Below are positions 26,141 to 44,504 of a stretch of DNA of 44,504 nt, piece by piece (position 1 is the stretch's first letter; every line of letters begins with the position of its first letter). Origin of the DNA: Methanobacteriota archaeon. GTDB lineage: Archaea > Thermoplasmatota > Poseidoniia > Poseidoniales > Poseidoniaceae. The notes beneath the pieces were generated by a model. The model saw only the letters and a program-made list of their open reading frames with translations, did no database searches and had not been told where the DNA came from. The stretch covers positions 14,965-59,468 of the forward strand of contig PBMS01000008.1 in assembly GCA_002722695.1 (NCBI GenBank), written 5' to 3'. The translations under genes and the position numbers were made by a program.

Positions 26141-29100
26141 TCACTTCCACGGGTCATCACCGTCAGGCTCGTGCCCGCGAACCCGCAAGAACGCAAGCAA
26201 CACCAGGACGACCACGATGAGCGCGACGAGTTGGAGGGTCGTGTTGGAGACCTCAGCGGCCGGTTGAGGTTCATCCGTCGGGGCGTTCTGAGTGTCTGAA
26301 TCATCCGCCGGCGAGGCGCCCGCATCGACGGTGAACGAGAGACTGCTTTGGTTGACATTGCCCGATGCATCGGCGCTGATCACCTCCAGCGCATAGGTTC
26401 CGTCGGCCAAGATGTCGGTGGTAAAGACGTGGTTTTTCTTGGTTGCAAAGGCGTCCTCATGCACGGAACTTCCGTCGATGAGAATGCTTTCTGTCGCGCT
26501 TTCTGAGGTGTACCACGATACGGTCACACGTCCGTCCTCGAGAACTTCAGCAGCGAGGTTGAGCACGTCGGGTGGAGTTTCGTCGACCACGCTGCTGGTG
26601 TTGAACCACACGGTCGCATCGGTTGATTCGTTGGCCTTGATGTGGGCCCAATACGCCGTGCTGACCTCGAGTCCTGTGAGGGTCACGGCGTGGTCCATGC
26701 CCGCCGCCGTCCACACCTGTTCGGCGGTAGGGTCGGGGTCTTGACCCGCCGGAGCCACCTGTATCGAGGTGGCGTCCGCCACGGTGGTTGACCATGTAAC
26801 CACCGCTGAGGAAGAGGTTACGGTGTCCACCGATGCACCGAAGATTTGCTGCGGAACCTCGGGCATCTCAAACCCAGTCAGTTGCGCATAGGTGTGACCG
26901 GACACGTCGTAGCTGGAGAGCATGTCCGTCTGACCTTCGCCTTCCAAAATCACGTCGATGATGTTCGGGTCGTAATCGATGCCGTCGTCCGGAGCGGGGT
27001 TTTCACCGCCGCCCAAGGTCCACGTTGCGGGCTGCTCCATGACATCGCGCCATTTTCCTGTTCCGAACCCGTCCTGACTTCCGATAACGATGATGTAGCG
27101 ATAGTTGGGGATGTCGGACCCGATGACGCCTTTGCTGACGGTGAAGGTGATCGTCTTCGATTCCACGTCCCCCGAGACGTCAACGCCCCGGGCTGAAGCG
27201 CTGCCGGTTTGAGCCTGAACGGCTTGCACCGCACCCGGTTCCCCCGTTCCGCTGATCGCCACTTCCCAAGCCCAGTCCGGGTGCACTTCGGCGTTGGCGC
27301 CCGTCAACATGGACGTCCGCCCGTACGAGGTTTCACCTTGGTCCACGTAGATTTGAACGATTTGATGACTGAAGCCGTTCGATAGACCCCAGATGTCGGT
27401 CATCTCGCCCATGGTCAAAATGAACTGTGCGTTCCAGGCGCTTTGCCGGACGGTGAGGTGCGTGGCGTCCCAAAGACCGCCACCGTTGGGGGTGTTGAAG
27501 TCCGAGGCCAAAGGGTAGACGTAATCGCCGTCACCGGTTTCGTCGCCCACGGCGTCCTCCAATTCCAGCAGAGTGACCCAGTCTTCAAGGTCAGGAAGCA
27601 CCATTTCTGCGGGCGCTGGTGGCGCCATTTCAGCGTCCGTCCCGTCACCGTAGGAAAGGGAATCTCTCCACGACGTGACCACCTTGACTCGAGTGGAGTA
27701 TCGTGGTGCAAGACCAATGTCGGCCCACGGGACAGCAAACTCGTAGACCTCGTCCACTGCGCATCCCCCGAGATTCGAGCTGCCTGAAAGAACCCATCGT
27801 TCTTGATCGCCAACCTTCCCTTGGGCACTGAAAAGATTCCATTTGGCCCGCCCGTCTTCTCGAAGCGTGTCGAAATCAAACGCCACCATGTACTTTGACG
27901 GGAAGCCGAGGATTTGGTTTCCGTAATACGTCCTAAAGTTGGTTTCTGCTTCGTTGAAATTGACCGCATTGGGCTGCATGAAGTAGATGGCCAAGTCGGG
28001 TGAGTCGTATTGAGTCGTGCCCTCGATGAGGCTCAAGTCGTCCAGCGTGGTGGCGTCAACGCGAAGGAAAACATTGGATGCATCGTAGCCAAAGTGGAAC
28101 GATTCTATGTCAAACTCGCCGCCCGAAATCGGCGCGTCGTATCGTGCAGCACCGTCCCACTCCCCGGGCAGTGCAACACCGTCAATCATCGGTTCAACAA
28201 TGCCACTTGCGGCCGGGTTGGGAACCGCTGGGTTGGTCCAAAGATCTTGAAGATAAGGGGGTAGGTCGAGATTGATGGCTCGATAAATGTTGGAGAGGTG
28301 GACCTTGAACAAGACGTCCCAATTCTCGTCGTAACCGCTGTCCTGATCGAGCCCGTACCACCAATACCAATCGCTGCCCTCAGCGATGTAGAGCGATTCC
28401 CAAGCGGCTGGCAAACCCGGGTCGTCCGGGTTGGTTTCCTCAAAGTCAACGAGGGCCTGCCGCGCCTCAACGAGCCGTTGCCACCCAAGACTCTCCTCTT
28501 CCTCTCCAGCCCATGTCCTCAGGGTACCGTCAATCCATGAACCGGTTCCAATGGTGTCGATTTCGGGCAGCGTCGTTCCTTTGCTGAGGAATTCCGATGG
28601 CGTGGTGGTGACGATGGTGGGATGTTCAGCCAGCCGTCCGTACCACTCTTCCATGAAGGGGCGAGCGTTGTCGTAATGCTGAAATTCGGACATGAACATC
28701 CAGTTTTCCCCGTCCAAGGCCACCGTGAGAAGGTGTTGGGATGGGTCCTCCCCGGCGTCCAAAAGTTGCTGGCGAACGTTGTCAAGGTAGGAGATAAAAT
28801 CGGAGACTGCGGCCTCGGGGGTCATCGTTCCGTACTGGAAGGCGATTCGATCGGAGATGACTCGGTCTCGGAAGATCACGGCGATTTCACCGCCCTCCTC
28901 TCCGGTCGCCATCCAGGGCGTTGCAAGGTTCGCAGCGTCTTCAACATCGACGTATTGACCGGTCGTGTCGGTGGACTGCTTGAGGATCTCCTCGTCGGAG
29001 ACCATCCATTGGATGCCGACGTCGGTCACCGGTTCCACCATGGCTGGAGACACCGCTTGTTCACTCGGCCACATGCCGACGGGTCGGAAACCGAGTTCTG

Positions 29101-30610
29101 ATTCGAACAGGTCCATACCGGTCACGAGGTGGTTTTGAACGTCCGCTGGCCAAGCCTCTTTGTTGACGCGGATGCCGTCTTCCATCGTCCACCCGTCCAT
29201 CATCAACAGCGGCATGATGGGGTGGTAATACGGGGTCGTGGTCAATTCAACTTGACCCTCGGCGGCCAATTCGCTGTACATCGGGAGGACGTTGCCCATG
29301 TGCTCGTGCTGCGCATCGAGCACGTAGTTGAGATTCGCAAGTGTGTAATTCCCGTTTTGCATAAACAACGCCAGCAAGCCCTCGTCCCGATGAGTGCTGT
29401 TGTAATCCCCTTGGACGTAATCGGGCGAAAACTGGTAGAGGTACCACAACACCTGAAGGTCGAGGAAATCTTGCGGTGCGAGGAGTTCGTCGTCCATGAT
29501 GGTGTCGGGTTTTAGATTGTGAAGCGTCATGTCGTAGAGTTCCTTGTAGCGAGCGCTCGACGGATAGAGCCACCCGAGTTTTTCATCGCTTTGCGAGACA
29601 TTGTAAATCCAGCCGCTGTTCCAAAACGATTGGAACTGCATCGTGTGGAGCTCAAGAGCGGTTGCGTTTGGATAACCGCCGTCGCTCCACGACCTCTTAG
29701 CGATGTCCGTGTGAACATCGAGCGTTTCGTTGAGGTTGTAATCAACGAGTTGCTCGATGAACGACGGAACGAGGTTGTAGGTGACTTTGGTGTCGGTTTC
29801 AGCCAATATGCCCGGCGAATCGACGTATTCGGTCATGGCGTGAACCCGAACCCAAGGCATCTCGTACATCCCGGTCAGCTTGTTCTTGTAGTACGGTTGG
29901 TGCTGGTGAAAGACGATGGCGAGGTTGAGTGCGTCGTCCACTTTTTCAACGGTGAGCGATTCAACGATTGGGAGATCTCTGGGGACGGTTGTGTTGGTGA
30001 TGTTTTCTGCGTGCCAAGCATGCGTGAAGGTTTCTGCCCCGTTGTTGCTGGCGGGATTTTGTGTGGGAAACGAAGCCCAGACGTTGCCTTCATCCTGCCA
30101 CTGTGCGTAGACGATGATTTCAAACGAGGTGGGCGAACCGAACGCCGACCAGGGCAGCGCGAGTTCAGTGGCCTGATTGTCAGCCCAGCCCGCATAGAGC
30201 TCGACCGGCGTGGACTGGTCGACCCACGCATTTCCATCGTAAGCGATGTGCTGGTTGTAGGTGTCGTCTTCCAGCACAAACCCGTGGTCTGCAGCGAACG
30301 GAAGGGTGTGTGCAAAACCCCAATCTCGAGCGAGGACGGAACCGCCCTCCGAGGTGTTCAGATAAACGAAAAGATCCGCTCCCTCAACGGTGGACTTCCA
30401 GTCCGTCCCGTCCCAACCGAGGAAGAGCATGGTTTCGTTCCAGGTCATTCGGAACTCAACGCCGCTGTCGTCGGTCGCCATGAGCGAATCCGCAGTCCAG
30501 TCCGAATGGGCCCCGTCAACCGTGATGTCGTCGGGGGTTTGTCCTTCGACAAATCCTGTAAAAAGAGAGGCGAAAAACACCAACACGATGAACACGGCCT
30601 TGGAGCGCAT
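26141..30610 (-). CDS. Secreted, membrane-anchored GH57 glycoside hydrolase (amylopullulanase-like) with flanking DOMON/CBM9-like and Fn3-like domains
   Basis: Signal peptide MRSKAVFIVLVFFASLFTGFVEG; GH57 regions AIVFHQHQPYYKN, GMWPSEQAVSPAMV, TVALDGENWMF; C-terminal Fn3-like domains and TM LQLVALIVVVLVLLAFLRVRG. Confidence 0.92.
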   Translation of the reverse strand: MRSKAVFIVLVFFASLFTGFVEGQTPDDITVDGAHSDWTADSLMATDDSGVEFRMTWNETMLFLGWDGTDWKSTVEGADLFVYLNTSEGGSVLARDWGFAHTLPFAADHGFVLEDDTYNQHIAYDGNAWVDQSTPVELYAGWADNQATELALPWSAFGSPTSFEIIVYAQWQDEGNVWASFPTQNPASNNGAETFTHAWHAENITNTTVPRDLPIVESLTVEKVDDALNLAIVFHQHQPYYKNKLTGMYEMPWVRVHAMTEYVDSPGILAETDTKVTYNLVPSFIEQLVDYNLNETLDVHTDIAKRSWSDGGYPNATALELHTMQFQSFWNSGWIYNVSQSDEKLGWLYPSSARYKELYDMTLHNLKPDTIMDDELLAPQDFLDLQVLWYLYQFSPDYVQGDYNSTHRDEGLLALFMQNGNYTLANLNYVLDAQHEHMGNVLPMYSELAAEGQVELTTTPYYHPIMPLLMMDGWTMEDGIRVNKEAWPADVQNHLVTGMDLFESELGFRPVGMWPSEQAVSPAMVEPVTDVGIQWMVSDEEILKQSTDTTGQYVDVEDAANLATPWMATGEEGGEIAVIFRDRVISDRIAFQYGTMTPEAAVSDFISYLDNVRQQLLDAGEDPSQHLLTVALDGENWMFMSEFQHYDNARPFMEEWYGRLAEHPTIVTTTPSEFLSKGTTLPEIDTIGTGSWIDGTLRTWAGEEEESLGWQRLVEARQALVDFEETNPDDPGLPAAWESLYIAEGSDWYWWYGLDQDSGYDENWDVLFKVHLSNIYRAINLDLPPYLQDLWTNPAVPNPAASGIVEPMIDGVALPGEWDGAARYDAPISGGEFDIESFHFGYDASNVFLRVDATTLDDLSLIEGTTQYDSPDLAIYFMQPNAVNFNEAETNFRTYYGNQILGFPSKYMVAFDFDTLREDGRAKWNLFSAQGKVGDQERWVLSGSSNLGGCAVDEVYEFAVPWADIGLAPRYSTRVKVVTSWRDSLSYGDGTDAEMAPPAPAEMVLPDLEDWVTLLELEDAVGDETGDGDYVYPLASDFNTPNGGGLWDATHLTVRQSAWNAQFILTMGEMTDIWGLSNGFSHQIVQIYVDQGETSYGRTSMLTGANAEVHPDWAWEVAISGTGEPGAVQAVQAQTGSASARGVDVSGDVESKTITFTVSKGVIGSDIPNYRYIIVIGSQDGFGTGKWRDVMEQPATWTLGGGENPAPDDGIDYDPNIIDVILEGEGQTDMLSSYDVSGHTYAQLTGFEMPEVPQQIFGASVDTVTSSSAVVTWSTTVADATSIQVAPAGQDPDPTAEQVWTAAGMDHAVTLTGLEVSTAYWAHIKANESTDATVWFNTSSVVDETPPDVLNLAAEVLEDGRVTVSWYTSESATESILIDGSSVHEDAFATKKNHVFTTDILADGTYALEVISADASGNVNQSSLSFTVDAGASPADDSDTQNAPTDEPQPAAEVSNTTLQLVALIVVVLVLLAFLRVRGHEPDGDDPWK

Positions 30611-30631: not shown

Positions 30632-30661
30632 ATTGAAAGGCTTTATCGCTTGATGGGGGCC

Positions 30662-31903
30662 ATGGAAGGGAAAGGTGTTCTGTGCCACATCACCTCCCTG
30701 CCCAATTCAACCTTGGACGACGCTCTTCGTTTTCTGAGGTGGCTGCGCGATCAAGGGTACAGCGCCTGGCAAATGCTCCCACTGACACCGCCCGATGAGC
30801 ACGGTTCACCTTACGCATCCCCAACCGCATTTGCGACCTGGCCGGCGTTGATGCGTGGGACGGAAGCTGAATCAATGCCCGACGACGACTATTGGCTGGA
30901 GGACTGGGGGCTCTATGCAGCCATCAAAGAGGCTCACGGTCATCGACCGTGGTTTGAATGGCCACGTCCGCTTCGCGACCGCCATCCTGAGGCGCTTGAG
31001 GCCTATCGAGACCAAGCCAAGCACCACGTCCTCGAGCAGCGGACGGTCCAGCACGCATGGAACCAACTGGCTCATGAGGCCCGAAAATCAGACATCTCCC
31101 TCATTGGCGATGTACCGATGTTCGTCTCCCACGATTCAGCGGATGTTTGGGCCCATCGCAACCTGTTCCAACTCAATTCGGACGGAATGCCCGCTTTGGT
31201 CGCTGGCGTCCCACCGGATTATTTCAGTGAGGGCGGACAAAAATGGGGCACTGTTCTTTACGATTGGGACGCTCATCGCGACGAAGATTGGCGCTGGTGG
31301 AAGGAACGTATGAAGCGCATGCTCCGATTGTTTGACGTGGTACGGATTGACCATTTTCGAGGCATCCATTCCAACTGGGCGGTGCCCGTGGAGGACGACG
31401 ATGCACGAAACGGTTGTTGGCAGGACGGCCCGGCGGACGATTTGCTGAACGCCATCCACGATGTGGTGGTTGACGCCGATCAAATCCTCGCAGAGGACCT
31501 CGGTGTTGTTCCCAACGAGGTGGTGGAACTCCGCCGTCGTTTCAAGCTCCCCGGAATGGCCGTTCTGCACTTTGGTTTTGGAGGTGAAGCAAACAACCCA
31601 CACCATCCGCATGCGATCCAATCCGACCAGGTGGTGTACACCGGTACCCACGACAACAACACGACGAAGGGGTGGTGGGAGATGCTTGACCGGGAAACAA
31701 AAGGGAGGGTTTGTGCGCTCCTCGGGGACGACGAATCACCTCACAAAGGCCTGATTCGAATGGCCATGGAGAGCGCGGGGCGGATGGTGGTGCTCCCGCT
31801 CCAAGACGTGCTGGGCTTGGACAGCACCGCTCGAATGAACACCCCCGGAACACACGATGGAAACTGGCGGTGGTCGTTTGCTTGGTCCGACCTCCCGGGT
31901 TGA
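30662..31903 (+). CDS. malQ: 4-alpha-glucanotransferase (GH77 amylomaltase)
   Basis: GVLCHITSLPN, YSAWQMLPLTPPDEHGSPYASPTAFA, DVVRIDHFRGIHSNWAVP, LAEDLGVVPNEV, YTGTHDNNTTKGWW. Confidence 0.95.
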   Translation: MEGKGVLCHITSLPNSTLDDALRFLRWLRDQGYSAWQMLPLTPPDEHGSPYASPTAFATWPALMRGTEAESMPDDDYWLEDWGLYAAIKEAHGHRPWFEWPRPLRDRHPEALEAYRDQAKHHVLEQRTVQHAWNQLAHEARKSDISLIGDVPMFVSHDSADVWAHRNLFQLNSDGMPALVAGVPPDYFSEGGQKWGTVLYDWDAHRDEDWRWWKERMKRMLRLFDVVRIDHFRGIHSNWAVPVEDDDARNGCWQDGPADDLLNAIHDVVVDADQILAEDLGVVPNEVVELRRRFKLPGMAVLHFGFGGEANNPHHPHAIQSDQVVYTGTHDNNTTKGWWEMLDRETKGRVCALLGDDESPHKGLIRMAMESAGRMVVLPLQDVLGLDSTARMNTPGTHDGNWRWSFAWSDLPG

Positions 31904-31919
31904 AGAATGCTCCACCGTG

Positions 31920-31929
31920 AACAATATAA
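31920..31929 (+). promoter_or_regulatory. Putative TATA box for glgP
   Basis: AACAATATAAC about 25-30 nt before the ATG at 31953, consistent with a leaderless archaeal promoter. Confidence 0.4.
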
Positions 31930-31952
31930 CCCATTTTTTGGTGGTGCTACTG

Positions 31953-33602
31953 ATGCCACCCGTTGCGTATCTCACCGCCGAAATAGGGCTGTGGTCCGAA
32001 CTCCACACCTATTCCGGAGGTCTGGGGGTCTTAGCGGGCGATCACGTGAAATCAGCAGCCGACGCCGAGCTTCCTCTGGTGGGCCTGAGCCTGCTCTATC
32101 GAGAGGGATACGGTCGCCAGCACCTTGACGACAATGGTGTCCAATCCGAGTCCTACGGGCCCATCGACCCGGCGGAACACCTTACGAACACGGGAAAAAG
32201 CATCCAGCTGCCCCTCGATGGAACCGTTCTCCACGCCACAATTTGGAAAACCGACGTGGTGGGTGTGTCCGGACATGTCGTTCCCGTCTATTTCCTCGAC
32301 ACCTACCACCCCAACAACTCAACGGAATTCATCGGCCTAGGCGCTCGACTGTACGGGGGGGATGACCGAACACGCGTCCGCCAAGAGTACCTCCTCGGCG
32401 TGGGCGGTGTTCAGGCCCTTCAACACCTCGGCCACGACTTTGTTGGGATGCATCTCAACGAAGGCCACTGCACCTTTGCCATGCTCGAGATGCTGCGCCA
32501 GGGGTGGAGCCGAAAGGAACTGGCGCAACGTACGCTGTTCACCACGCACACACCGGTTCCAGCAGGGCACGACCGCTTTGAGTGGCAACTGGTCCGAGAC
32601 GTCGTTGGCGACCTGCTTCCTGCGGATGCTCAGGACCTCGTTCGAGGAGCCGGCGACCCAGAACAAGGGGGCCGTTGCTCCATGTCACATCTAGCGGTGG
32701 CCCTTTCAACATCGGTCAACGCTGTTTCAAATCTTAACGCCCAAGTTGCGTCCACGATGTTCGGCAGCACCCACATCGCACCCATCACCAACGGGGTTCA
32801 TCACATCACATGGACTTCGCCGCAAATGGGAGGACTGTTCGACAGCCACCTCCCCGGGTGGAAGGAAGACCCGGGCCAACTCGCCTACGCTGGAAGCCTT
32901 CCAGACGATGCATTGCTCGAGGCACGCACCGCCAGTCGTCGCATCCTGAGAGAACTGGTCCACGCCTCTACAGGTGTTCGATTGGATGAAGCCCGACTCA
33001 CCATCGGGTTTGCTCGCCGATTTGCAACCTACAAGCGGGCCAACCTGGTCTTCAGCGACCTCGAACGCCTCCGAGCGCTCGGTGCAGATCGGATTCAATT
33101 CGTGTTCAGTGGGAAAGCCCACCCCAAAGACGAAGGCGGCAAGCAGCTGATTCGAGACATCTTCTCCTCGGCCAAGGAGGTGGCTGACGACATCCCGGTG
33201 GCCTTCATCGAGAATTACGACATGGCGACGGGTCTTGCAATGACCAGCGGCGTGGACATTTGGCTGAACAATCCGATTCGACCTCTCGAGGCATCGGGAA
33301 CCTCAGGTATGAAAGCGGCCATGAACGGTGTTCCAAACTGTTCCATCTTGGACGGTTGGTGGCCCGAGGGTTGCGAGCACGGCGTCAACGGCTGGGCCAT
33401 CGGCCAATCCGAGGACGAGCGAGACGACGAGCGGGACGCCAACAACATCTACAACGTTCTGGAGCACGAAGTGTTACCTCTCTGGGACGAAGGCCCCGAG
33501 CGTTGGGCGAAACTGATGCGAGCCAGCATCGCCACGTCGGCCCGGTTTACGGGCACGAGGATGATCGCTGACTACCTGCACTTCTACAACCGATTTGCTT
33601 GA
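31953..33602 (+). CDS. glgP: Alpha-glucan (glycogen/maltodextrin) phosphorylase, short GT35 type
   Basis: MPPVAYLTAEIGLWSELHTYSGGLGVLAGDHVKSAADAELPLVGLSLLYREGYG; HLNEGHCTFAMLEML; PLP-site region EASGTSGMKAAMNGVPNCSILDGWWPEG. Confidence 0.95.
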   Translation: MPPVAYLTAEIGLWSELHTYSGGLGVLAGDHVKSAADAELPLVGLSLLYREGYGRQHLDDNGVQSESYGPIDPAEHLTNTGKSIQLPLDGTVLHATIWKTDVVGVSGHVVPVYFLDTYHPNNSTEFIGLGARLYGGDDRTRVRQEYLLGVGGVQALQHLGHDFVGMHLNEGHCTFAMLEMLRQGWSRKELAQRTLFTTHTPVPAGHDRFEWQLVRDVVGDLLPADAQDLVRGAGDPEQGGRCSMSHLAVALSTSVNAVSNLNAQVASTMFGSTHIAPITNGVHHITWTSPQMGGLFDSHLPGWKEDPGQLAYAGSLPDDALLEARTASRRILRELVHASTGVRLDEARLTIGFARRFATYKRANLVFSDLERLRALGADRIQFVFSGKAHPKDEGGKQLIRDIFSSAKEVADDIPVAFIENYDMATGLAMTSGVDIWLNNPIRPLEASGTSGMKAAMNGVPNCSILDGWWPEGCEHGVNGWAIGQSEDERDDERDANNIYNVLEHEVLPLWDEGPERWAKLMRASIATSARFTGTRMIADYLHFYNRFA

Positions 33603-36247
33603 GCCAATTCATCCTCGAGCTTCGCCTCCGCTCCCGGCGGCTTTTTCCCCGTGATGAGCAGCACCGCCAAGAGGAGAGCAACCACACCGATCAGCATCGT
33701 GCGAAGGGTCTCGCTGGTGGACGAACTGGAGGACGATGCGTCGTCCTCGCACGCACCGCATGTCGGCACCGGACATGCTTCGTTGGCGGGCACCTCCTGC
33801 GTGGTCCCGCAGCAATCGGGGCAGACCTGCATCGCAGGGCCCTCGGTGCTCTGGTTGGTGGGGTCGTCGGTCGAGTTGACGTCGGTGGAATTTGTTCCAG
33901 CAGGTGGTTCCGGCTCCGCCTCGGATTGGTTGGACGTGGTGTCGTTTGAGGCTTCGAAAACACACGACCCGTCGTCCTCGGTGGCTTGGGGGTCGTGGTT
34001 GGTGGCCGATGCGTCCGTGCACCCGGCAACAGCCGGCTCAGGGTAAGTGCAGGTTGCGTCGTCTTCGGTCGCCTCAGGGTCGTAATTCTCCGCAGCCGGG
34101 TCCATGCATCCCAACAACGGCGCAGCGTCCGTTCCACTGTCCGAGTCGTTGGCTGGAGGCATCGAATTCAGTTCAACCACGGAAACGGAATGAGCAGGGA
34201 TTGAAAGTGAACCGTTCTCCATGACGGCCGTCCCGAAACGAACGGAGTCGTTGGCTCCAAACCCGGACAGTTCCGTTGGACCACCTCGGTTCAACGCCAC
34301 GGTCATGACCTCATCGTCGTGCGTCATGTCGTAGACGAGAAGATTGGTCTGGGCGAGCCTGGTGCTGTACTCACCCTGACGCAGAGCGACGGAGGAGAGT
34401 CGAAGTTGACCGAGTTCGGAGATGTTCTCAAACAAGGAGGCTTCGTGACTGCTCCACTGGGATTCGCTGCGGTACATATGACGGTTGTCCGGGTCCGCTC
34501 CACCGTACTCTCCGTATTCGTCGCCGTAGTAAAGGAGCGGCGCTCCGGGCGTGGTCAGAAGCCAACCGTACGCTTGCAGGGCAGTGTGATACGCCGAAAC
34601 ATCGCCGGGTTGGCCGGGCAAACCCTGCTCCGCCCACTGGTTGTATGCATCGCCCGTTCCGGTGTCGGCACGACTGGTCAAACGAGGCACATCGTGGCTG
34701 CCAACGTAAGGCACCATCAGCGAGCCGGAAAGGTACTGGTCTTGGCTACGGTTGGTCCAGAAGTCGAGATGCTGGTAGTTCTCGTTGCCGGAGACAAAGA
34801 CGTTGTCCACCACGGCGTGGTACAGGACGAAATCGGCCTGGCCGTCCAAACCGTCCGGACCCATGTAGGCGTTGATGGCCCCGTACTGGCCCTGATTGGC
34901 CTCGAGAGAGTGGCCCGACCACCCCATGGCGGTTTCGCCCTTCAGGTAGACGTCGTTGCCGACCGTTTCGAACCGGTTGTTGATTTGAGCCACGAGGTTG
35001 GAAACAGCCAGGTTCTCAACGTGCTTCACCGCATCGATGCGCGCCCCGTCCAAATCAAAGGTTTCCATCCACCACAACGCATCGGCGATGAATTGCTCCG
35101 ATGCATTTCGGTTCTCCCAATTCACGTCGGGCATGTAGGCGGTGAACTGGCAGTCCAGTCGATGCTCGGTCCAATCGCACTCGGCCTGACCGCAAATGCA
35201 ACCGGAATTGAACCACTCCGGGTGGCTCTGGACATATTCGTGGTCTTCGTGAACGTGATTGACAACGAAGTCCATCATCACGCGAATGCCACGATCGTGA
35301 GCGGCGTTGATCATGGCATGAAGTTCGTCCTCCGTGCCCAAGCGAGGTTCAACGCCCCGAGCTTCCGTGGGCCAGTACCCGTGGAAGGCCGAGACGTCGT
35401 GCACGCCATCGGCCGCTTTACCCGTGCCCTGCGCAGCGGCGTTGAAGGGAGTAAGCCAAAGCGCATTGACACCAAGGTCTGCGAAATAACCGGATTCAAT
35501 CATGCTCGTCACGCCCGCAAAGTCGCCGCCCTGCCAGTCCGCACCGGAGGCCGCTCCGGTGGGGTTCCCGTCGTTGCTTTCGTTTCCATTGACGAAGCGA
35601 TCGGTCATGATCATGTACACCAGAGCGTCCTCCCAAACAAACGATGCGTGCGGTCCGCGCCAAAAGGGAACCAACAGGTCGTACGCTTGATGCCCGTGCG
35701 TGTCAAGACCTTCGATCTTCAGGGTGTGCTTTCCGTCTTCAAATCCATCGAGTGAGAGCGTCCAGACCGAGTGCTGGGCATCCCACGTCGCACCTTGGAG
35801 TGCAGTTGGCGTTCCGTCGGGCCCCGCCCCCGTGGAGCCAGCGTGATAGGTGACGCTGAGAGCCGTATCGGTCATGCTCGCAGTGTAGTAAGGACGGAGA
35901 TGGTCGTTTACTCGGAGCAGCGAATTCTCAATTCCATCGCAATACGATCGTTCGGGGTTTTCAGGGTCGAGGATGTACACACCATCGACCACGATTTTGT
36001 AGCAGTACAAGCCTTCTGCCAGTTCAATGTCCACCGACCACACACCTCCGGAGAGGTTCATGTCAACCGGTGCGTCCCAATCCCACTCACCTGCGAGTTT
36101 CACCGTGCTGGCTTCACCGACGTAGGAGACCGTGGTGGCCGTGGAAGATCGACCCGTGGTGGCCTGAGCGTCGTTGGAAAACAACGGCGAAAAGGAGACC
36201 ATCAGCAGGAGGAGGACCAGTCCCAACGAGGAGCGGACAAGGCTCAA
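33584..36247 (-). CDS. Secreted, membrane-anchored GH13 alpha-amylase family enzyme
   Basis: TTG start and signal peptide; N-terminal CBM48/Ig-like region; GH13 motifs VMMDFVVNHVHEDH, DLDGARIDAVKHVENL, YLKGETAMGW, VPYVGSHDVPRL; Cys-containing GCMDPAAENYDPEATEDDATC and GCTDASATNHDPQATEDDGSC repeats; C-terminal TM LRTMLIGVVALLLAVLLITGKKPPG. Confidence 0.94.
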   Translation of the reverse strand: MSLVRSSLGLVLLLLMVSFSPLFSNDAQATTGRSSTATTVSYVGEASTVKLAGEWDWDAPVDMNLSGGVWSVDIELAEGLYCYKIVVDGVYILDPENPERSYCDGIENSLLRVNDHLRPYYTASMTDTALSVTYHAGSTGAGPDGTPTALQGATWDAQHSVWTLSLDGFEDGKHTLKIEGLDTHGHQAYDLLVPFWRGPHASFVWEDALVYMIMTDRFVNGNESNDGNPTGAASGADWQGGDFAGVTSMIESGYFADLGVNALWLTPFNAAAQGTGKAADGVHDVSAFHGYWPTEARGVEPRLGTEDELHAMINAAHDRGIRVMMDFVVNHVHEDHEYVQSHPEWFNSGCICGQAECDWTEHRLDCQFTAYMPDVNWENRNASEQFIADALWWMETFDLDGARIDAVKHVENLAVSNLVAQINNRFETVGNDVYLKGETAMGWSGHSLEANQGQYGAINAYMGPDGLDGQADFVLYHAVVDNVFVSGNENYQHLDFWTNRSQDQYLSGSLMVPYVGSHDVPRLTSRADTGTGDAYNQWAEQGLPGQPGDVSAYHTALQAYGWLLTTPGAPLLYYGDEYGEYGGADPDNRHMYRSESQWSSHEASLFENISELGQLRLSSVALRQGEYSTRLAQTNLLVYDMTHDDEVMTVALNRGGPTELSGFGANDSVRFGTAVMENGSLSIPAHSVSVVELNSMPPANDSDSGTDAAPLLGCMDPAAENYDPEATEDDATCTYPEPAVAGCTDASATNHDPQATEDDGSCVFEASNDTTSNQSEAEPEPPAGTNSTDVNSTDDPTNQSTEGPAMQVCPDCCGTTQEVPANEACPVPTCGACEDDASSSSSSTSETLRTMLIGVVALLLAVLLITGKKPPGAEAKLEDELAQANRL

Positions 36248-37041
36248 GGGGACCCCTCCTGCGCCGGTTCGGTGGGTCGCAGCAACGTGTTGGCGGTTTC
36301 AACCAGTTCATCGAGGTGACGACAAAGGAAGGATTGGACGAACTCGTTGCTGGGTTGTCGATACGCTTCGAGTGGAGGTGCATGCTGTTGTAGCACGCCT
36401 TTGTCCAAGATGGCCACCCGGTCCGCAAGCGTCATCGCCTCGATTTGGTCGTGGGTGACGTAGATGGTTGTGGTTCCCAATTCATCGTGCAGTCGCCGGA
36501 TTTCATGGCGCATCTGGTGCCGAAGTTCCGCATCAAGGTTGGACAAGGGCTCGTCCATCAGCAACACTTGGGGACGACGAATGAGTGCGCGGCCCAGGGC
36601 CACGCGTTGGCGCTGTCCGCCGCTCAATTCCTTGGGTTTCTTGTCAAGGTGATCGGACAACTCCAGCATCGTGGCTGTTTCCTTGACCCGGCCCGCCATG
36701 TCTGCATCGGAAATCTTCTCCTCGCCCTTGGCCATACGCAGTCCAAACGTCAGGTTGTCGCGAACCGTCATGTGAGGGTAGAGCGCATAGGATTGGAAGA
36801 CCATGCCAAGCCCCCGGGCACCTGCTGGGAGGTGATTGACGGCCACGCCGTCGATGGAAACGGTGCCTTCCGTAATCTCTTCCAAGCCAGCCAACATGCG
36901 AAGCGTGGTGGATTTACCGCAACCAGAAGGACCGAGCAGGACAAGGAATTCACCGTCCCTGACTTCAAGATCGAGACCCTTGACCGCCTCAAAGCCGTCT
37001 TCGTACCGTTTCGAAACCCCTTCAAACTTTACACTCACCAT
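36244..37041 (-). CDS. malK: Sugar ABC transporter ATP-binding protein (MalK/MsmX-like), short form
   Basis: Walker A LGPSGCGKSTTLRMLAGLEE, signature LSGGQRQRVALGRALIRRPQVLLMDEPLSNLDAELR, H-loop YVTHDQIEAMTLADR; ends ~30 aa after the NBD. Confidence 0.93.
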   Translation of the reverse strand: MVSVKFEGVSKRYEDGFEAVKGLDLEVRDGEFLVLLGPSGCGKSTTLRMLAGLEEITEGTVSIDGVAVNHLPAGARGLGMVFQSYALYPHMTVRDNLTFGLRMAKGEEKISDADMAGRVKETATMLELSDHLDKKPKELSGGQRQRVALGRALIRRPQVLLMDEPLSNLDAELRHQMRHEIRRLHDELGTTTIYVTHDQIEAMTLADRVAILDKGVLQQHAPPLEAYRQPSNEFVQSFLCRHLDELVETANTLLRPTEPAQEGSP

Positions 37042-37047
37042 GTTGGT

Positions 37048-38295
37048 TCACCCCTTCACGCCTCCAGCTGAAAGCCCCTCGATGAGGAACTTCTGGAAGA
37101 ACAAAAACAGGAGAGCAACCGGCAGACTGACCAAGAGGCTGGCCGCAGCGAAATCGCCCCAAGCCTGTCCGGTGCTGGAAATCATTGAGGCCAGCCCGAC
37201 TGGAAGCGTGTACATGTCGTTGGACGTGTTGAACGTCAGCGCCAGGAGGAATTCGTTCCACGCTGCGAGAAAGCTGAACAACGCTGTTACCGCTACGGCC
37301 GGGAGCGAAAGCGGCAGCACCACCTTGGTGAAGACTTGGAACTGGTTGCAGCCGTCCAACAACGCCGCCTCTTCCAGCTCCCGAGGCACCGTGTCAAAGA
37401 ACCCTTTGAGCATCCAAACACACAGCGGGAGGGCGGTGACACAATACGCTAAAATCAGGCCGAGGTGGGAATTGAGCAAACCAAGCGATTTCATCACCAG
37501 GAAGTAAGGAACGAGAATGATGATGCCGGGGAACATTTGGACCAGCAAGAAGGAGAACATCGAGACGTCCCTCCCAGTGAACTTGTATCGGCTGAACGCG
37601 TATCCGGCCGGAACAGCCACCACCAAGCCCAGCAGTGTGGTGCCAACGCTGACGATGAGCGAGTTCGTCATCCATGTCCAAAACGCCTCGCTCCCCAACA
37701 TGTTTGAGAAATGCTCACCGGTGTAGGGCCCACCCAAGGTGCCGCCCAACGCGTTGCCTGGAGACAGGGCAATGTCCAAGATCCACACCAGTGGCAACAC
37801 CGTGAGCACCACAAAATGTACGAGCACAACGTGGGCGCCAAACGCACGTAAACGCGTCTCATTGCGTTGATTTCGAGCCAACCCGTACTCGATGGCGCCG
37901 ATGGAGAGAGAACGTGTGGACCATGCTGAAACAGGTCGACTGGAAACCCAGAGGATGGTCAGAGCCCCGGGGGCAACCAGCCAAGCCTGCATCCATCCGT
38001 CGAACAGCGTCATTGGCGACAAGGTGAACCGCACCAACCCCGTCAAGAGAACCCCCCCACCGAGGATGAGAGAAACGTTTCGAGACGACGGTGAGGCCTC
38101 CTTGGGGAGACCGTTCAGGAGGCCGGTGATGAGGACCAACCCCAGAACACCGATGAGGACCGTAGAGCCCCCGCCTCGAAGCATGTCAACGGACAGAAGG
38201 AGGAGGTTCACCACAAAACTCACCACGAGCCATCGGCGCAACGTCGAGACCTCGACGGGCGTGTACCACCGACGAACGGAGGCTTCGGAGATCAC
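37048..38295 (-). CDS. malG: Maltose/maltodextrin-type ABC permease (MalG-like) with extra N-terminal TM region
   Basis: GTG start at 38295 (VISEASVRRWYTPVEV...); EAA-type motif ELEEAALLDGCNQFQVFTKVVLPLSLPAVAVTALFSFLAAWNEFLLAL. Confidence 0.9.
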   Translation of the reverse strand: MISEASVRRWYTPVEVSTLRRWLVVSFVVNLLLLSVDMLRGGGSTVLIGVLGLVLITGLLNGLPKEASPSSRNVSLILGGGVLLTGLVRFTLSPMTLFDGWMQAWLVAPGALTILWVSSRPVSAWSTRSLSIGAIEYGLARNQRNETRLRAFGAHVVLVHFVVLTVLPLVWILDIALSPGNALGGTLGGPYTGEHFSNMLGSEAFWTWMTNSLIVSVGTTLLGLVVAVPAGYAFSRYKFTGRDVSMFSFLLVQMFPGIIILVPYFLVMKSLGLLNSHLGLILAYCVTALPLCVWMLKGFFDTVPRELEEAALLDGCNQFQVFTKVVLPLSLPAVAVTALFSFLAAWNEFLLALTFNTSNDMYTLPVGLASMISSTGQAWGDFAAASLLVSLPVALLFLFFQKFLIEGLSAGGVKG

Positions 38296-40916
38296 AGCGT
38301 CGCCTCCGTTGCGTTGGTTCGCTTCATGTAACTCCACGAAAAGACAAGCAGCATCAGGAAGATGACGACCGACCACGCTGCGGCAACACCGTAAGCCCCG
38401 TCCCGGAAGGCAACATCGTAAACGTACGTGATGAGAATATCGGTTTGTCCGGGCTCTCCAAAGTACAGGTCAGGGCCACCATCGGTGAGCAGATAGATGA
38501 CGTTGAACATGTTGAACGTCCAAATAAATCCGAGCAGGGACAGCGGCACCAAGGCGCTTTTGAGATTGGGTAAGGTGAGGTGGCGGAACGTGTCCCACGT
38601 GCTCACTCCGTCAAGTTTCGCAGCCTCGTACATCTCCTTTGGTAGGGCTTGGAGAGCCCCGCTTAACGACATCATCATGAACGGTACGCCCAACCATATG
38701 TTGACAAAAATCACCACGATCTGCGCCCCGGTCGGGTCGCCTAAGAAATTGAGATCCGTCCCGAGAAGTCCGTTCACAAGACCCTCAGGCTGGAACATCC
38801 CCTTCCACACGAGAACGGAGATGTAGGAGGGAATGGCCCATGGAAGCAAGAGAACGGTTCTGTAGACCGTTTTACCACGAATGTTGCCGTACTGCAGAAC
38901 CATGGCGAGGAACAAGCCCAAACCGATGTGAGCGGTGACGTTTACGACCGTCCAAACCAACGTAAAGAGCGTGACGCGCAGGAAGCCCGATGCGGTGAAC
39001 ACCTCGATGAAATTGACCAAGCCAACGAAAGATTGGTCTCCCAATCGCGTTGCGTCCGCATCGGTGAACGACAACCAAAACCCATAGAGCACTGGATAAA
39101 ACGTCAGAACAGCAAGGGCGAGCATGGCTGGAGCGATGTAGACATGAGCGGATTTTGCGTGCAAGCGGCCCGCCTTCACGTCCATGGCACGACCATAACT
39201 CAGCAGCGCAATCAGCGACACCACAATGGCTCCCAAAGCGAACAGCACGGCTGAAGTGTCCCCCGTCGGTGGGAGAACGTCGCCCACGATGGTGGTGAGT
39301 TCCGATTCAAAGACCGTGCCGTTGTCGCCCTGAATCTCGATGAGATGGACGGCGCCGGGAACCATGCCTGTCAACGTGCACGCGATGACCGACGTGCTTG
39401 GAGAATACACTCGTTCGGTCGCCGTGCGGCTCATGTCGACACCGTCCGCTTCGCACAATTCGTACGGTGGCAGGTTCGACAGAGAGGAGGTGTTTGTGGA
39501 GAGTCGACTGTGGAGTTGCCCGTCCACCAGGACGGTGTAGGCCGATGATTCATCCGTGCTGAAATTGACGGCGATGGTTCGGTAGCCTTCGTTTGATGGA
39601 GGCGGAGCAGCACGTTCGAGCCCGTCGATTTGAGACATCAGCTCTTCGTTGGCACCCGCAAGAGCCGCATCGGCGGTGGCCGTTGCTGTGTAGACCTGTT
39701 CGAAGGCCGTGACCAATGGACCGTAGATGAGCGCCATGGCGCGAGTGGTGGGGGCAGGTGTTCCCGCCTCAACCTGGTCAATGAACCCCGAAAGGACGGG
39801 ATCCTCTCGAATCGATGCGTCGTTTGCAAGCGACGCATGGGTCGGCAGTGTGTAGGTCTCAAGCGCAAATGATTTCTGAACGTCAGCGCTCGATAAATGC
39901 AATGCGAGGTCCACCGATGCAAGTTTGTGGAGACTCTGTTTGCTCACCGTCCATCCTTTGTAGGTGACCAACGGCGCCACTCGCTCACCCGTTTCTTCGA
40001 TGACTGGAAGCAGAGACTGGCCGACATCGAGGCGACTGGCTTCGTAGGTCGCCCAGTTCCATGGACCATCGACGATCATGGCCGCTTTTGAGGCGATGAA
40101 TTGGTTTTTCATGCCCTCCGTTTGGGTGCCGGTGGCGACCACACCGTGTTCAAGCTCCAAGTTGAGCAGCCAGTCAAGAGCCTCAGCAGAGCCGCCGGAC
40201 TCCAATGTTGGCGACCCGGTTTCGTTGAACAATGAACCGTTGTACCCTGCTTGAAATCCAAACCACCAATACGCCGATTTGACGGGTAGGGCGAGGCCCT
40301 GAACATCTTGGTAGGTCAGGGCTTGGGCGGCTTCGAGCAGGTCGTTTTGCGTCCACGAATCGTCAGGGTACGCAACGCCACGCGCATCAAAAATCGCCTT
40401 GTTGTAAACCAGGGAAAGCGCATCCTGACTGGCCGGTACTCCGTAAAGGGCCTCGTCGTACCGCATGGCGTGGAGCGCTTGTTCTTGGAATTGATTGCGT
40501 TGAACCGGAGTAAGGTGAGGACGAAGATCCTCAAGCAGTGGGAATCCATCCACGCGAACTTCGCCAATCGCTCCGAGCTGGTCGCTTGAAAGCCGCATTA
40601 AGTCCGGTGCTTCTCCACCCTGCGCAGCCGTCATGAACAGGTTGTCGGCGTCGCCAAACGGAACCAACGCAACGTCGATTGTGATGTTGGGATTGGATGT
40701 TTCAAACGATTGAATCGACTGCAGGAACACGTTCTCCTCCTTGCTCTCGGCTGCGAACGTGTGCCAAACCGTGAGGGTAATCTGGTCGTCTGAAACGGAA
40801 TCATCCAACGATGTGTCGTCCGAACCGCCCAGACATCCACTCATCAGGACAGTGCACAGCAGCAACGAAACCAAAGCTGCATGGCCGGCCTTTCGATGTC
40901 GAAGACGACCGGACAT
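38292..40916 (-). CDS. Lipoprotein sugar-binding protein fused to ABC permease (MalE-MalF fusion)
   Basis: Lipobox LLCTVLMSGCLGGSDD; family-1 SBP (ITLTVWHTFAAESKEENVFLQSIQSFETSNPNITIDVALVPFGD); then a linker domain, a TM, and MalF-type permease (YIAPAMLALAVLTFYPVLYGFWLSFTD; EAA motif PKEMYEAAKLDGVSTWDTFRHLTLPNLKSALVPLSLLGFIWTFNMFNVIYLLTDGGP) in one 874-aa ORF. Confidence 0.93.
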   Translation of the reverse strand: MSGRLRHRKAGHAALVSLLLCTVLMSGCLGGSDDTSLDDSVSDDQITLTVWHTFAAESKEENVFLQSIQSFETSNPNITIDVALVPFGDADNLFMTAAQGGEAPDLMRLSSDQLGAIGEVRVDGFPLLEDLRPHLTPVQRNQFQEQALHAMRYDEALYGVPASQDALSLVYNKAIFDARGVAYPDDSWTQNDLLEAAQALTYQDVQGLALPVKSAYWWFGFQAGYNGSLFNETGSPTLESGGSAEALDWLLNLELEHGVVATGTQTEGMKNQFIASKAAMIVDGPWNWATYEASRLDVGQSLLPVIEETGERVAPLVTYKGWTVSKQSLHKLASVDLALHLSSADVQKSFALETYTLPTHASLANDASIREDPVLSGFIDQVEAGTPAPTTRAMALIYGPLVTAFEQVYTATATADAALAGANEELMSQIDGLERAAPPPSNEGYRTIAVNFSTDESSAYTVLVDGQLHSRLSTNTSSLSNLPPYELCEADGVDMSRTATERVYSPSTSVIACTLTGMVPGAVHLIEIQGDNGTVFESELTTIVGDVLPPTGDTSAVLFALGAIVVSLIALLSYGRAMDVKAGRLHAKSAHVYIAPAMLALAVLTFYPVLYGFWLSFTDADATRLGDQSFVGLVNFIEVFTASGFLRVTLFTLVWTVVNVTAHIGLGLFLAMVLQYGNIRGKTVYRTVLLLPWAIPSYISVLVWKGMFQPEGLVNGLLGTDLNFLGDPTGAQIVVIFVNIWLGVPFMMMSLSGALQALPKEMYEAAKLDGVSTWDTFRHLTLPNLKSALVPLSLLGFIWTFNMFNVIYLLTDGGPDLYFGEPGQTDILITYVYDVAFRDGAYGVAAAWSVVIFLMLLVFSWSYMKRTNATEATL

Positions 40917-40961: not shown

Positions 40962-41645
40962 TTAGACATCGCGGGAAAAACCCATCAGAGGCAGAATCGC
41001 TCGTAGGTCCTTTTCCACGACGACGGGGACCCCGGCGCTCGCAAAGGCTTCTTTTGAGCTGTCTCGAGACGGGTTGAAACCGATGAATCGGCTGCCCTCC
41101 ACGTGCATGGAAAGATCCATTTCAGAATCCCCAACAGAGACACAGTTCACCGCTTCATGACCGTTCATAGCAAGCAATTTGGTGATGACGTCACCTTTTC
41201 CGCTGGCGTGAAGGCGACACACGCCTTCGTCGGTCAGAAACCCGTCGTCGTCAAACACAAACCCGTTTGCAATCCAGTCGTCCACCTTCAGCATGCTGGC
41301 GACGGAACTCACGAACAGATCCACACCGGCGCTGACAATGGCGACGAAGACGCCCTGATCAAGCAAGTGTTGCACGGCCTCACGAGCCCCCGGCATGAGT
41401 TTGATGCCTGCGTATGCACGGAACAACTCATCCTGGTGAATCGGTGTTCTGACAGCCTTCCACATCTGAATGTCGGATCGCATGAACTCAACATCGCTGA
41501 ACTCTCCCCGGATGAACCGGTTCAGGTTCACAGTGTTGTCCGTACCGAACAAGTCGTGGAGGGTTCTCCAGGAACTCACCGCATCGACCAAGACACCGTC
41601 ACAATCAAACACGACGACCGTCGGTTTCGTTTCACTCTCTGACAT
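40962..41645 (-). CDS. HAD-family phosphatase, SerB (phosphoserine phosphatase)-like
   Basis: VVVFDCDGVLVDAVSSW (HAD motif I), VAIVSAGVDLFV (motif II), SVGDSEMDLSM (motif IV). ATG at 41645 more likely than upstream 41705. Confidence 0.85.
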   Translation of the reverse strand: MSESETKPTVVVFDCDGVLVDAVSSWRTLHDLFGTDNTVNLNRFIRGEFSDVEFMRSDIQMWKAVRTPIHQDELFRAYAGIKLMPGAREAVQHLLDQGVFVAIVSAGVDLFVSSVASMLKVDDWIANGFVFDDDGFLTDEGVCRLHASGKGDVITKLLAMNGHEAVNCVSVGDSEMDLSMHVEGSRFIGFNPSRDSSKEAFASAGVPVVVEKDLRAILPLMGFSRDV

Positions 41646-41780
41646 GGTTTCACCTGTGGTGCCTGACTTAACAGGCTTCGCAAACATCCGCTTACCGCGC
41701 GCCAAGGAGAGGAGGCCCTTGCGGGCCTCGCTCCCCGAGGCGATCGTCCGTTGGACGATTCGCTGGTTCGACGTTCAGGC

Positions 41781-44504
41781 TCAAGCCTTCTTGTCGTAGC
41801 TCAGGTCGTCCCAAGTTCGGAGCAGGGCACCGTCTCCGTTGATCGGAGCATAACTCAGGGTGATCGTAGCGTCTTCAAGAGGCGTACCGTCAGGTGCGTG
41901 GGTTCGCACAAAGATCGTGTCTCCAGAGTTGAAGGTCGAGATCGACCGGGTTTCTGACTCGGAGATTTGTTCCTTGGTCACGGAGTCCACGAAGGTCACG
42001 AAGGCGTCGCTGTTGGCTGGGTTGAACCCGTACACACCGGCGCTGTCGGCCAGATTCACCTGGAACGTGTTGAGAGCACCCGTGGCGTTGGTGTAGAACA
42101 CCTTGACCACAACCGCTTGGGTTGCAAGCGCCGTCTGGGATTGCTCAACGGTGATTTTCCAGTGTCCTTGGTCGGCATCAAAGGCGTTGATGTCTTCGAT
42201 GTCGAAGGTCACACGAGGCACACCTTTCACGTCGGTTTCGGCGAGGCTGGAAGCCCACACGTAGATGACACCGGACAGAACCACGGTGATGGCGACCATC
42301 AGGATGGTTGCGATCACCGGGCTGACTGCGGCGTCGTCCTCAGCCATCGATTCGACGTCCTCTTCGTCGTCAGCACGGCGGCTGGCGAAGGAGAGAGCAC
42401 TGACGAAGAGACCCGTCAGGGCCACTGCGACGATGCTTGGGGCGAACGATGGAACGGCGCTGGCACCGATGGTTTCCACAACATCTGGCAGGTTCTGGTC
42501 CGTGGACAAGAACGTGCTCGCAGGCTGGTTGGCGTGGTTGCACGTATCAGCGGTGGCGAGCGAGGTCATGATGTTGTTACACCAGTTGCTGTCCTCAAGG
42601 AGAGGTCGGCGTTCCGAGGTCTTCGTGGCGTTCTTACCGTATTGTCCGGGCTTGGACCATGGCTCGTCGCTCTGCACGTTGTTCACGATTGCGTAGTGGG
42701 ATCCGGGCTCATCGGCCTGGAAGCGGTCCGCAGCGGTCACCGACATGTCGCAGGGGTTGGCCAAACAGGTCACAACGTCCATCTCGACATACACGTGGGT
42801 GGTGTCCTTGGTGATGTAGACATCCTCGGTGTACTTGACACTGGCACCGTAGTCGGGCACAGCGTAGTATCGAGTCAACTCAACATCATCATGACCGTCC
42901 GTGTGATAGGTGATGGCCAGCATGTGGTCGTATCGGTAGGGGCCTTCGTCTCCACCGCCGTTTACAGCGACGGTGACCGGGACGTAGGTGCCGGTCATGA
43001 CGTTGGTGACACCGTTGAAGCTGAAGCCAGCCACATCGTCGAAGTAGTAGTCTGGGACCAATTCTCGGACGTTTTCGACACGCACACCGATTTCCTTCGT
43101 GGCAATACCTTGCTGGTAGTCTGCAATGGCCATGATGCTTGGGTCGTAGTTGGGCACATAGGTGCTGTACTCGCCTTGCGTGGTTGGCGCGGTTGCGGTG
43201 TCTCGAAGGACCAAGCGGATCTGACAGTACTCAGAGCCTGAAGGACCGATCTGGTGGATACCGTTGTTGTTGAGGTAGTCAATCTCCCAGTCGTTGGCGT
43301 TGGTCGTAGCGTCCTCGATGAGGTCGAACACGAGGTCGTCACCGACGATGGTCGTGGTGAAGTAGTTCGTGTAGACACACTGGTCCGTGGACTCGACCGT
43401 CCAGTAGAGGTCGTCCAGCTCATGGTCGACGTCGGCCTTGATGGCGGACATGTCGTAGGTCAAGTTGTCCAGGTTCTCGTCGTCTTCCATCAAGGAGATG
43501 GACCACGGGAGAGCGGGGATCGAACCGTTGTCGGCAACCATGACGGTCTCGGTCGTGCGGTTCCAGTCGAGGATGACCGGAGCGTCGTTGACCGGAGCAA
43601 CCGAGAAGACAACGTCGTACGTTTCGGCGTCTTGGTTCTCAGCACCGTTGTCGGCAAGGCCGAGCGTGACCGTGCACTTTCCACCCAACTCGTTGTTGGT
43701 GTTCTCGGTGATGGCCAGTTCGTTGTTGACGATGTCGACGTCGAAGGCGGAACATGCGTCCGTGGTACCAAAGTCTGCGGCGCTGGCGGACCAGGAGTAG
43801 ACTTGGCGGGTTGGAGCTTGCTCGTTGGCCATGTCACGGATGTAGGAACGTGTGGCGTTCGACACATCGCCGAGGAACTTGGTGTGTGTACCAAATCCTT
43901 CAGGCAGGATGTTGTAGTTGCCGTCGTCTTCAGAGAAGATTGGCATGCAGTCGGTGCGCTCAACGTTGCAGATCTCGGGAGCGTCGTTCACGTTGTTCAC
44001 CGTGTAGGTGATGTTGTGTGTGTCGCTCAATCCGTTGCTGTCAACGACCTCGAAGGAGAACACCACGTATCCGAACTGGTCGGTCAGTGGCGTAATCGTG
44101 ACGTCTTGTCCGTTCTGAGACCAGTCGACGAGGATGTTGTCAAAGGCAACCAGTGTGCCCTCGTCAACGGTCCACGTCAAGTCGGATTCCTCGTCCTGCA
44201 CGTCGTCAGCCAAGTTGGTCAGGCTGAACGTGAAGGCTGGAGTGTCCTCGTCCTTGTTGAAGTCCACAAGAGCGTCGCTGATACCGGATCCCTGTGTGGT
44301 GATCTCTGGGCACGCACGCTTGATGTCAATCGTGCTCTGAACGTTGGTCGTGTCGCCCGTACCTGCCACGTAGCTGTCGTCGAAGACAACGTTGGTGGCC
44401 ATCGAGATGTCCTCGACGGTGGCCCAGTCGTATGCACAAGCCGCAGGCGTCTTGATCATCATGTCGTAGTTCTTCTGACCGGTGGCGGTGGTGCTGCCCT
44501 TGTA
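41781..44504 (-). CDS. Giant surface protein with Ig/cadherin-like repeats, TM, then archaeal pilin-like N-terminal segment and C-terminal domain (N-terminus truncated by window edge)
   Basis: Frame stays open to the right edge (YKGSTTATGQKNYDMMIKT...), so the ORF-track start at 44462 is unlikely to be real. NVNDAP/PVNDAPVI domain boundaries; TM APSIVAVALTGLFVSALSFASRR; then DDAAVSPVIATILMVAITVVLSGVIYVWASS. Confidence 0.88.
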   Translation of the reverse strand, partial: YKGSTTATGQKNYDMMIKTPAACAYDWATVEDISMATNVVFDDSYVAGTGDTTNVQSTIDIKRACPEITTQGSGISDALVDFNKDEDTPAFTFSLTNLADDVQDEESDLTWTVDEGTLVAFDNILVDWSQNGQDVTITPLTDQFGYVVFSFEVVDSNGLSDTHNITYTVNNVNDAPEICNVERTDCMPIFSEDDGNYNILPEGFGTHTKFLGDVSNATRSYIRDMANEQAPTRQVYSWSASAADFGTTDACSAFDVDIVNNELAITENTNNELGGKCTVTLGLADNGAENQDAETYDVVFSVAPVNDAPVILDWNRTTETVMVADNGSIPALPWSISLMEDDENLDNLTYDMSAIKADVDHELDDLYWTVESTDQCVYTNYFTTTIVGDDLVFDLIEDATTNANDWEIDYLNNNGIHQIGPSGSEYCQIRLVLRDTATAPTTQGEYSTYVPNYDPSIMAIADYQQGIATKEIGVRVENVRELVPDYYFDDVAGFSFNGVTNVMTGTYVPVTVAVNGGGDEGPYRYDHMLAITYHTDGHDDVELTRYYAVPDYGASVKYTEDVYITKDTTHVYVEMDVVTCLANPCDMSVTAADRFQADEPGSHYAIVNNVQSDEPWSKPGQYGKNATKTSERRPLLEDSNWCNNIMTSLATADTCNHANQPASTFLSTDQNLPDVVETIGASAVPSFAPSIVAVALTGLFVSALSFASRRADDEEDVESMAEDDAAVSPVIATILMVAITVVLSGVIYVWASSLAETDVKGVPRVTFDIEDINAFDADQGHWKITVEQSQTALATQAVVVKVFYTNATGALNTFQVNLADSAGVYGFNPANSDAFVTFVDSVTKEQISESETRSISTFNSGDTIFVRTHAPDGTPLEDATITLSYAPINGDGALLRTWDDLSYDKKA

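Follow-up and report, generated by a model that had tools for sequence, protein, structure and literature searches.

Covalent joining of a substrate-binding protein (SBP) to the permease of an ATP-binding cassette (ABC) importer is an established arrangement, represented by OpuA and GlnPQ and, among CUT1 sugar importers, by MalE-MalF of Bdellovibrio bacteriovorus. Licht et al. 2019 (Res Microbiol) reportedly described the MalE domain fused to MalF in this bacterium (PDB 6FFL), and a passage of a citing paper (PMC7756565) treats it as a transport-competent precedent. For Marine Group II archaea (order Poseidoniales), the available passages of PMC6461757 report a maltose transporter, with loss in some genera, and are silent on fusion; searches of the literature available here returned no earlier report of such a fusion in archaea. 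In this study, a stretch of 44,504 nucleotides from a Poseidoniaceae genome (GCA_002722695.1, contig PBMS01000008.1, positions 14,965 to 59,468), hereafter the window, was analysed for a gene at 38292..40916. Our analysis suggests that the MalE and MalF parts of a CUT1 maltodextrin importer are very probably made here as one chain; the single-frame arrangement itself is conserved across many Poseidoniales. The bacterial precedent notwithstanding, the archaeal host and the wide spread in this order appear to be new. The fusion gene and its parts are listed below.

38292..40916, minus strand: SBP-MalF fusion gene, 874 aa, single open frame (open reading frame (ORF) listing and domain searches)
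40836..40916, minus strand: signal peptide, aa 1-27, with lipobox M-S-G-C (Cys28) (sequence, hydrophobic stretch and lipobox comparison)
39624..40784, minus strand: MalE-type (family-1) sugar-binding domain, aa 45-431 (Pfam SBP_bac_8, PDB sequence match and Foldseek)
39579..39623, minus strand: junction peptide, aa 432-446 (spacing invariant in 75/76 fused homologues)
39297..39578, minus strand: Ig/Fn3-like beta-sandwich, aa 447-540, equivalent to the exported N-terminal domain (N-domain) of MalF in two-gene relatives
39186..39254, minus strand: added transmembrane (TM) helix, aa 555-577, predicted to run out-to-in (hydrophobicity and structure model)
38313..39149, minus strand: MalF permease core, aa 590-868, with EAA loop EAAKLDGVSTW...LP (Pfam, NCBIfam, phmmer and alignment)

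Architecture of the fusion protein

Pfam assigned aa 67-373 of the 874-aa protein to SBP_bac_8 (E 1e-24) and aa 664-859 to BPD_transp_1 (E 2e-18), both in a shared frame, and NCBIfam models matched MalE at aa 78-426 and MalF at aa 629-866 (E 5e-59). A binding domain and a TM subunit are present in one open frame, as expected of an SBP-permease fusion. The EAA loop sequence is kept among homologues in the alignment. These results agree with the initial annotation of the window, which had read a lipobox-bearing family-1 SBP and a CUT1 MalF-type permease in one frame and had placed the start of the permease at about aa 590 (nt ~39,150); the core was found near aa 590 (nt ~39149). A stop codon or frameshift at the junction, which according to that annotation would separate the two parts, was looked for and none was found.

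The bridge of about 110 aa between the two parts (aa ~432-545) was modelled as a seven-stranded beta-sandwich with a predicted local distance difference test (pLDDT) score of ~90. In the AlphaFold model the beta-sandwich and the larger part of the binding domain were at pLDDT about 80-95, and the former was also confident when modelled alone. Two invariant cysteines (C488 and C513) are carried by the beta-sandwich. The bridge had initially been called Fn3-like, a description that holds for the fold and not for the family profile: no Pfam fn3 match was found in the window fusion protein, and Foldseek with the N-domain returned generic Ig folds only, none of them significant. The homologous N-domain of a distant MalF (locus L152) scored 23.4 bits for fn3, just under the cut-off of 25. 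Two other origins of the bridge were considered. That the bridge copies the P2 loop of E. coli MalF is ruled out by position, because P2 comes after MalF TM3 and the bridge comes before the added helix. A de novo Fn3 linker is ruled out, as the bridge is homologous to the N-domain of unfused MalF.

The hydrophobic segments fit an SBP outside the cell, followed by an out-to-in helix and then the MalF core. The predicted topology is coherent: the SBP would be exported by the signal peptide, the helix would lead back inwards and the MalF core would start from the cytoplasm as usual. By position the added helix resembles E. coli MalF TM2, with a weak phmmer register with MalF. The region around the junction (aa 415-450) gave ratios of nonsynonymous to synonymous change (pN/pS) of 0.12-0.43 against nine fused relatives, and the junction is under purifying selection.

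Distribution, origin and anchoring

An order-level search of 324 Poseidoniales genomes gave some match in 163, weak matches to other permeases included. The fusion was recovered as one alignment in one frame in 78 genomes and as two alignments in one frame in 8 more (counted from the search table). The initial annotation had proposed looking for co-linear SBP and permease domains in archaeal genomes, and at least 78 single-frame fusions are the outcome. A total of 97 distinct homologous loci were extracted; 77 are fused in a single frame, close relatives of the window gene among them, and 20 carry two genes, with identical gene order in both forms. Fused forms are present in both families of Poseidoniales; across the phylum sample (394 genomes), the remaining orders yielded no SBP-MalF fusion. 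Apparent fusions in those orders, indicated by shared open-frame lengths (e.g. 810 in G583 and 845 in G572), proved to be separate ORFs when fetched. Two copies of the fusion locus occur in one bin (G014, on C32 and C36; L004 and L029/L144) with 82% and 81% identity to the window, possibly because the bin mixes two strains or because the locus was duplicated.

Comparison with the two-gene systems (e.g. L138, L090 and L022, about 50-80% identical by subunit) probably indicates the route by which the fusion arose. In the two-gene relatives, the diverged outgroup aside, the SBP ends 26-32 residues past a conserved anchor, and malF starts with a hydrophobic signal-peptide-like segment, e.g. MKRVFVITILSFLFLLPIGHASE, followed by the same N-domain, TM helix and core. 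Fused proteins have neither the stop nor the start, and the signal peptide of MalF is gone as well. An origin from adjacent malE and malF genes through loss of these three elements is strongly indicated. The bridge, judged by homology, is the old exported N-terminal domain of MalF and no new linker. From the N-domain up to the core the two-gene forms have 174-179 aa versus 131-161 aa in the fused forms, and the N-domain has evidently varied after fusion. Of 76 fused proteins, 75 have 37 residues between the anchor and the conserved GYR motif of the N-domain; the exception has 36. Such constant spacing is hard to obtain by independent deletions, unless length is strongly constrained, and therefore favours one origin.

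Several arrangements were observed besides these. In five two-gene loci (L090, L093, L097, L098 and L021) malE and malF lie in frame, separated by a lone TAG followed by ATG, GTG or TTG; read-through of this TAG would give one chain with an internal hydrophobic segment. Near relatives outside Poseidoniales (L151:5371-8070, L152:5204-8095, L153 and L154) have MalF and MalG in one chain of 900-964 aa with two BPD_transp_1 domains, a signal peptide and an Fn3-like N-domain. Directly upstream of the permease gene in L152 (3-5228) and L153, from genomes of the same phylum and another order (G532 and G570), a single ORF of >1740 aa joins an amylopullulanase-like enzyme (GH57/Glucodextran_C) to a maltodextrin-type SBP and also encodes two TM helices; it is a predicted fusion of enzyme and binding protein. 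By these predictions, parts of the transporter have been joined in at least three distinct ways within this lineage.

The predicted signal peptide of the window protein ends in the lipobox cysteine (Cys28), which marks it as a putative archaeal lipoprotein. Analysis of the lipobox revealed its cysteine in all 20 two-gene binding proteins and its absence from 12 of the 75 fused proteins with a readable N-terminus. Nine of the 12 lie in a Thalassarchaeaceae-type clade (L016, L077-L081, L083, L085 and L087) and three in a second clade (L017, L020 and L075); relatives that retain the lipobox are L100 for the former and L082 and L146 for the latter. In the SBPs without lipobox the signal sequence at the start is either ordinary or anchor-like; most Poseidoniaceae homologues keep the lipobox. 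Three changes were counted on the tree, or at least two on well-supported branches. The direction of loss and its limitation to fused lineages are suggestive of a relaxed need for the lipid anchor, with few independent events, and the lipid appears dispensable once the SBP is fused. The double anchoring through lipid and permease proposed by the initial annotation fits the window protein and does not extend to the two fused clades that lost the lipobox. We tentatively propose, at somewhat less than even chances, that in these archaea, which have no outer membrane, fusion replaced lipid anchoring at the surface, that the lipobox then decayed in two lineages, and that one binding domain serves each transporter, contrary to the excess-SBP model for oligotrophs.

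Operon, substrate and alternative readings

The genes surrounding the fusion are as follows.

40962..41705, minus strand: HAD-family phosphatase, upstream of the fusion on the same strand (Pfam)
37048..38295, minus strand: MalG permease of 415 aa, additional TM segments at the N-terminus (Pfam, NCBIfam and hydrophobicity)
36244..37041, minus strand: MalK-type ATPase, 265 aa, without C-terminal OB regulatory domain (Pfam and NCBIfam)
33584..36247, minus strand: GH13 alpha-amylase with AMPK1_CBM (CBM48-type) module, signal peptide and C-terminal TM helix (Pfam and hydrophobicity)
31857..33602, plus strand: glycogen/maltodextrin phosphorylase (context)
30650..31903, plus strand: GH77 4-alpha-glucanotransferase (context)
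26141..30610, minus strand: GH57 and Glucodextran_C glucanase, amylopullulanase-like (context)

The fusion, malG, malK, GH13, GH57, GH77 and phosphorylase genes constitute an alpha-glucan uptake and breakdown locus. The characters of a CUT1 importer were found together: a MalF-like permease with BPD_transp_1 and EAA loop, a second permease (MalG) and a MalK-type ATPase encoded in the same operon, and a family-1 SBP. The OB/TOBE domain of MalK, usual in CUT1 importers, was not taken here as strictly defining; no Pfam OB_MalK match was found in the window MalK. A longer MalK with an OB_MalK match below the cut-off was observed in the outgroup L142. The GTG start of malG (38295) overlaps the TGA of the fusion as GTGA and is preceded by GGAGG. 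The extra hydrophobic (TM) part at the N-terminus of MalG, about 130 aa, is not present in E. coli MalG, and it is older than the fusion because MalG is also long in the two-gene relatives. The upstream phosphatase gene is conserved in fused and two-gene loci alike. Further upstream, the window encodes a large surface protein (41781-44504) with cadherin/Ig-like repeats and an oddly internal match to the archaeal type IV pilin family Pilin_N at aa 726-775.

Maltodextrin is the likely substrate because of the glucan genes in the window, the closest PDB sequence to the binding domain (6ffl_A, E 2.8e-29) and the fold: Foldseek matched the domain best to maltodextrin-binding proteins with maltotriose, maltotetraose or cyclodextrin bound. 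In the proposed mechanism, a single N-terminal signal peptide would export the entire outer part, and surface GH57 and GH13 enzymes would cut alpha-glucans into oligosaccharides, which the tethered domain would bind and deliver by docking on its own MalF-MalG pair. MalK2 would drive import, and GH77 and the phosphorylase would process the sugar inside the cell. As MalF and MalG form a heterodimer, each transporter would have exactly one binding domain, whose local concentration would be high and which could be neither lost nor made in excess. Tethered delivery at 1:1 stoichiometry would hold as a fixed ratio only if the chain is unprocessed and no second binding protein serves the transporter. 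No free substitute SBP is evident, because a search of the genome that contains the window (70.7% complete) recovered no SBP_bac_8 protein other than the fusion. A passage of PMC11065425 gives a calculation for OpuA, in which an 11-residue linker keeps the binding domain at ~4 mM; by analogy, a junction of ~15 residues on a small stalk may give a local concentration of similar order. The cost of fusion is that no excess binding protein is possible, an excess which oligotrophs are argued to need in the passages available of PMC8168909. Archaea without an outer membrane cannot keep a free SBP pool in a periplasm, and anchoring may matter more to them.

Some points weigh against the account given above. 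The MalF core is of low confidence in the AlphaFold model, the substrate is assigned from neighbours and fold, and the trees disagree on whether the fusion arose once. In trees rooted with two-gene outgroups the two-gene systems are basal; however, the careful SBP+MalF+MalG+MalK tree placed the two-gene genus g16 (L127/L128) beside the fused genes of family f1. Monophyly of the fused forms was rejected by a quick four-gene tree in the approximately unbiased (AU) test (p 0.008), a result traced by per-gene tests to MalG+MalK, whose own trees reject it (AU p 0.008) because of this position of g16. One fusion with one fission, two fusions, or recombination are all compatible with the trees. More than one origin, e.g. 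separately in the two families, would explain the position of L127/L128 directly, yet it appears less likely: junction spacing is equal in both families, a single fused clade is compatible with the SBP (AU p 0.33) and the MalF core (AU p 0.18), and in the N-domain tree the fused forms are already one clade. Moreover, L127/L128 is a long branch, and recombination between neighbouring genes would produce the same conflict. We regard a single fusion as most likely, with the placement of g16 due to recombination, fission or long-branch error.

The remaining alternatives concern the reality, fate and substrate of the chain. The metagenome-assembled genome is fragmentary, being split into 50 contigs, and an overlooked stop or frameshift could in principle have made the single frame. 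This artefact is ruled out, with a negligible chance left to it: dozens of independently assembled homologues, roughly 56-88% identical, have the same frame open. The fusion might instead be a mere precursor, cut in the junction or stalk into a free lipoprotein SBP and a separate MalF. Such processing would account for a lipobox kept in the window's family, needless on a permanently tethered domain, and for the faster evolution of the junction and N-domain compared with the rest. It is nevertheless highly improbable, since the lipobox was lost in two fused clades and in no two-gene system, and cleavage there would release the domain; junction length is nearly invariant, and the two-gene forms achieve separate proteins by a stop codon and signal peptide. 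Import of another glucan or oligosaccharide has a slightly better standing and is still improbable. CUT1 specificity is poorly readable from sequence, and known maltodextrin-binding proteins share only ~23-26% identity with the binding domain, although they are its best fold and sequence matches and GH13, GH57, GH77 and phosphorylase genes flank the locus. A maltodextrin importer with its MalE and MalF parts in one chain is retained as the preferred reading.

Comparison with described transporters

Uptake models in the passages available of PMC8168909 let ocean oligotrophs gain affinity through many binding proteins per transporter, a prediction made testable by a fusion that would set this ratio at one in abundant ocean archaea. 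If fusion did replace the lipid anchor, an abundant ocean heterotroph would import sugar with one binding domain per transporter. The related fused and unfused forms, with and without lipobox, offer a natural series on the effects of tethering in ABC importers, and they suggest a simple route to an SBP-permease fusion, in which one internal signal peptide is lost and a pre-existing stalk domain is reused.

Among the systems compared, the two-gene malE-malF-malG-malK operons of Poseidoniales have the same operon order and the same exported N-domain in MalF; they differ in that the SBP is a separate lipoprotein and MalF has its own signal peptide. E. coli MalEFGK2 shares MalF, MalG and MalK homologues. 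However, its MalE is free in the periplasm, its MalF has a TM1 and P2 loop domain absent from the archaeal form, and its MalK has the regulatory domain that the window MalK is without. OpuA and GlnPQ likewise join the binding domain covalently to the TM subunit but belong to other ABC families, and passages of PMC8025302 and PMC11065425 give them dimeric TM subunits each with binding domains, at least two per transporter versus a predicted one here. The mollicute family NF043073 (MMSYN1_0195) has an NCBIfam name that describes a single chain uniting permease and binding protein; it is of the spermidine/putrescine class and gives only a weak match to the window MalG. Rarity of SBP-permease fusions in CUT1 systems, on which the initial annotation took no position, is qualified by the B. 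bacteriovorus precedent, also a CUT1 importer of the maltose/maltodextrin type in which MalF carries a single fused binding domain. The latter (6ffl_A) is the closest PDB sequence to the archaeal domain. This likeness is drawn from titles and the binding-domain sequence, and the host differs in being a bacterium with a periplasm. In the archaeal form the binding domain is N-terminal, a lipobox is present and the Ig-like stalk is evidently inherited from MalF, and the two-gene relatives within Poseidoniales point to an origin separate from the Bdellovibrio fusion.

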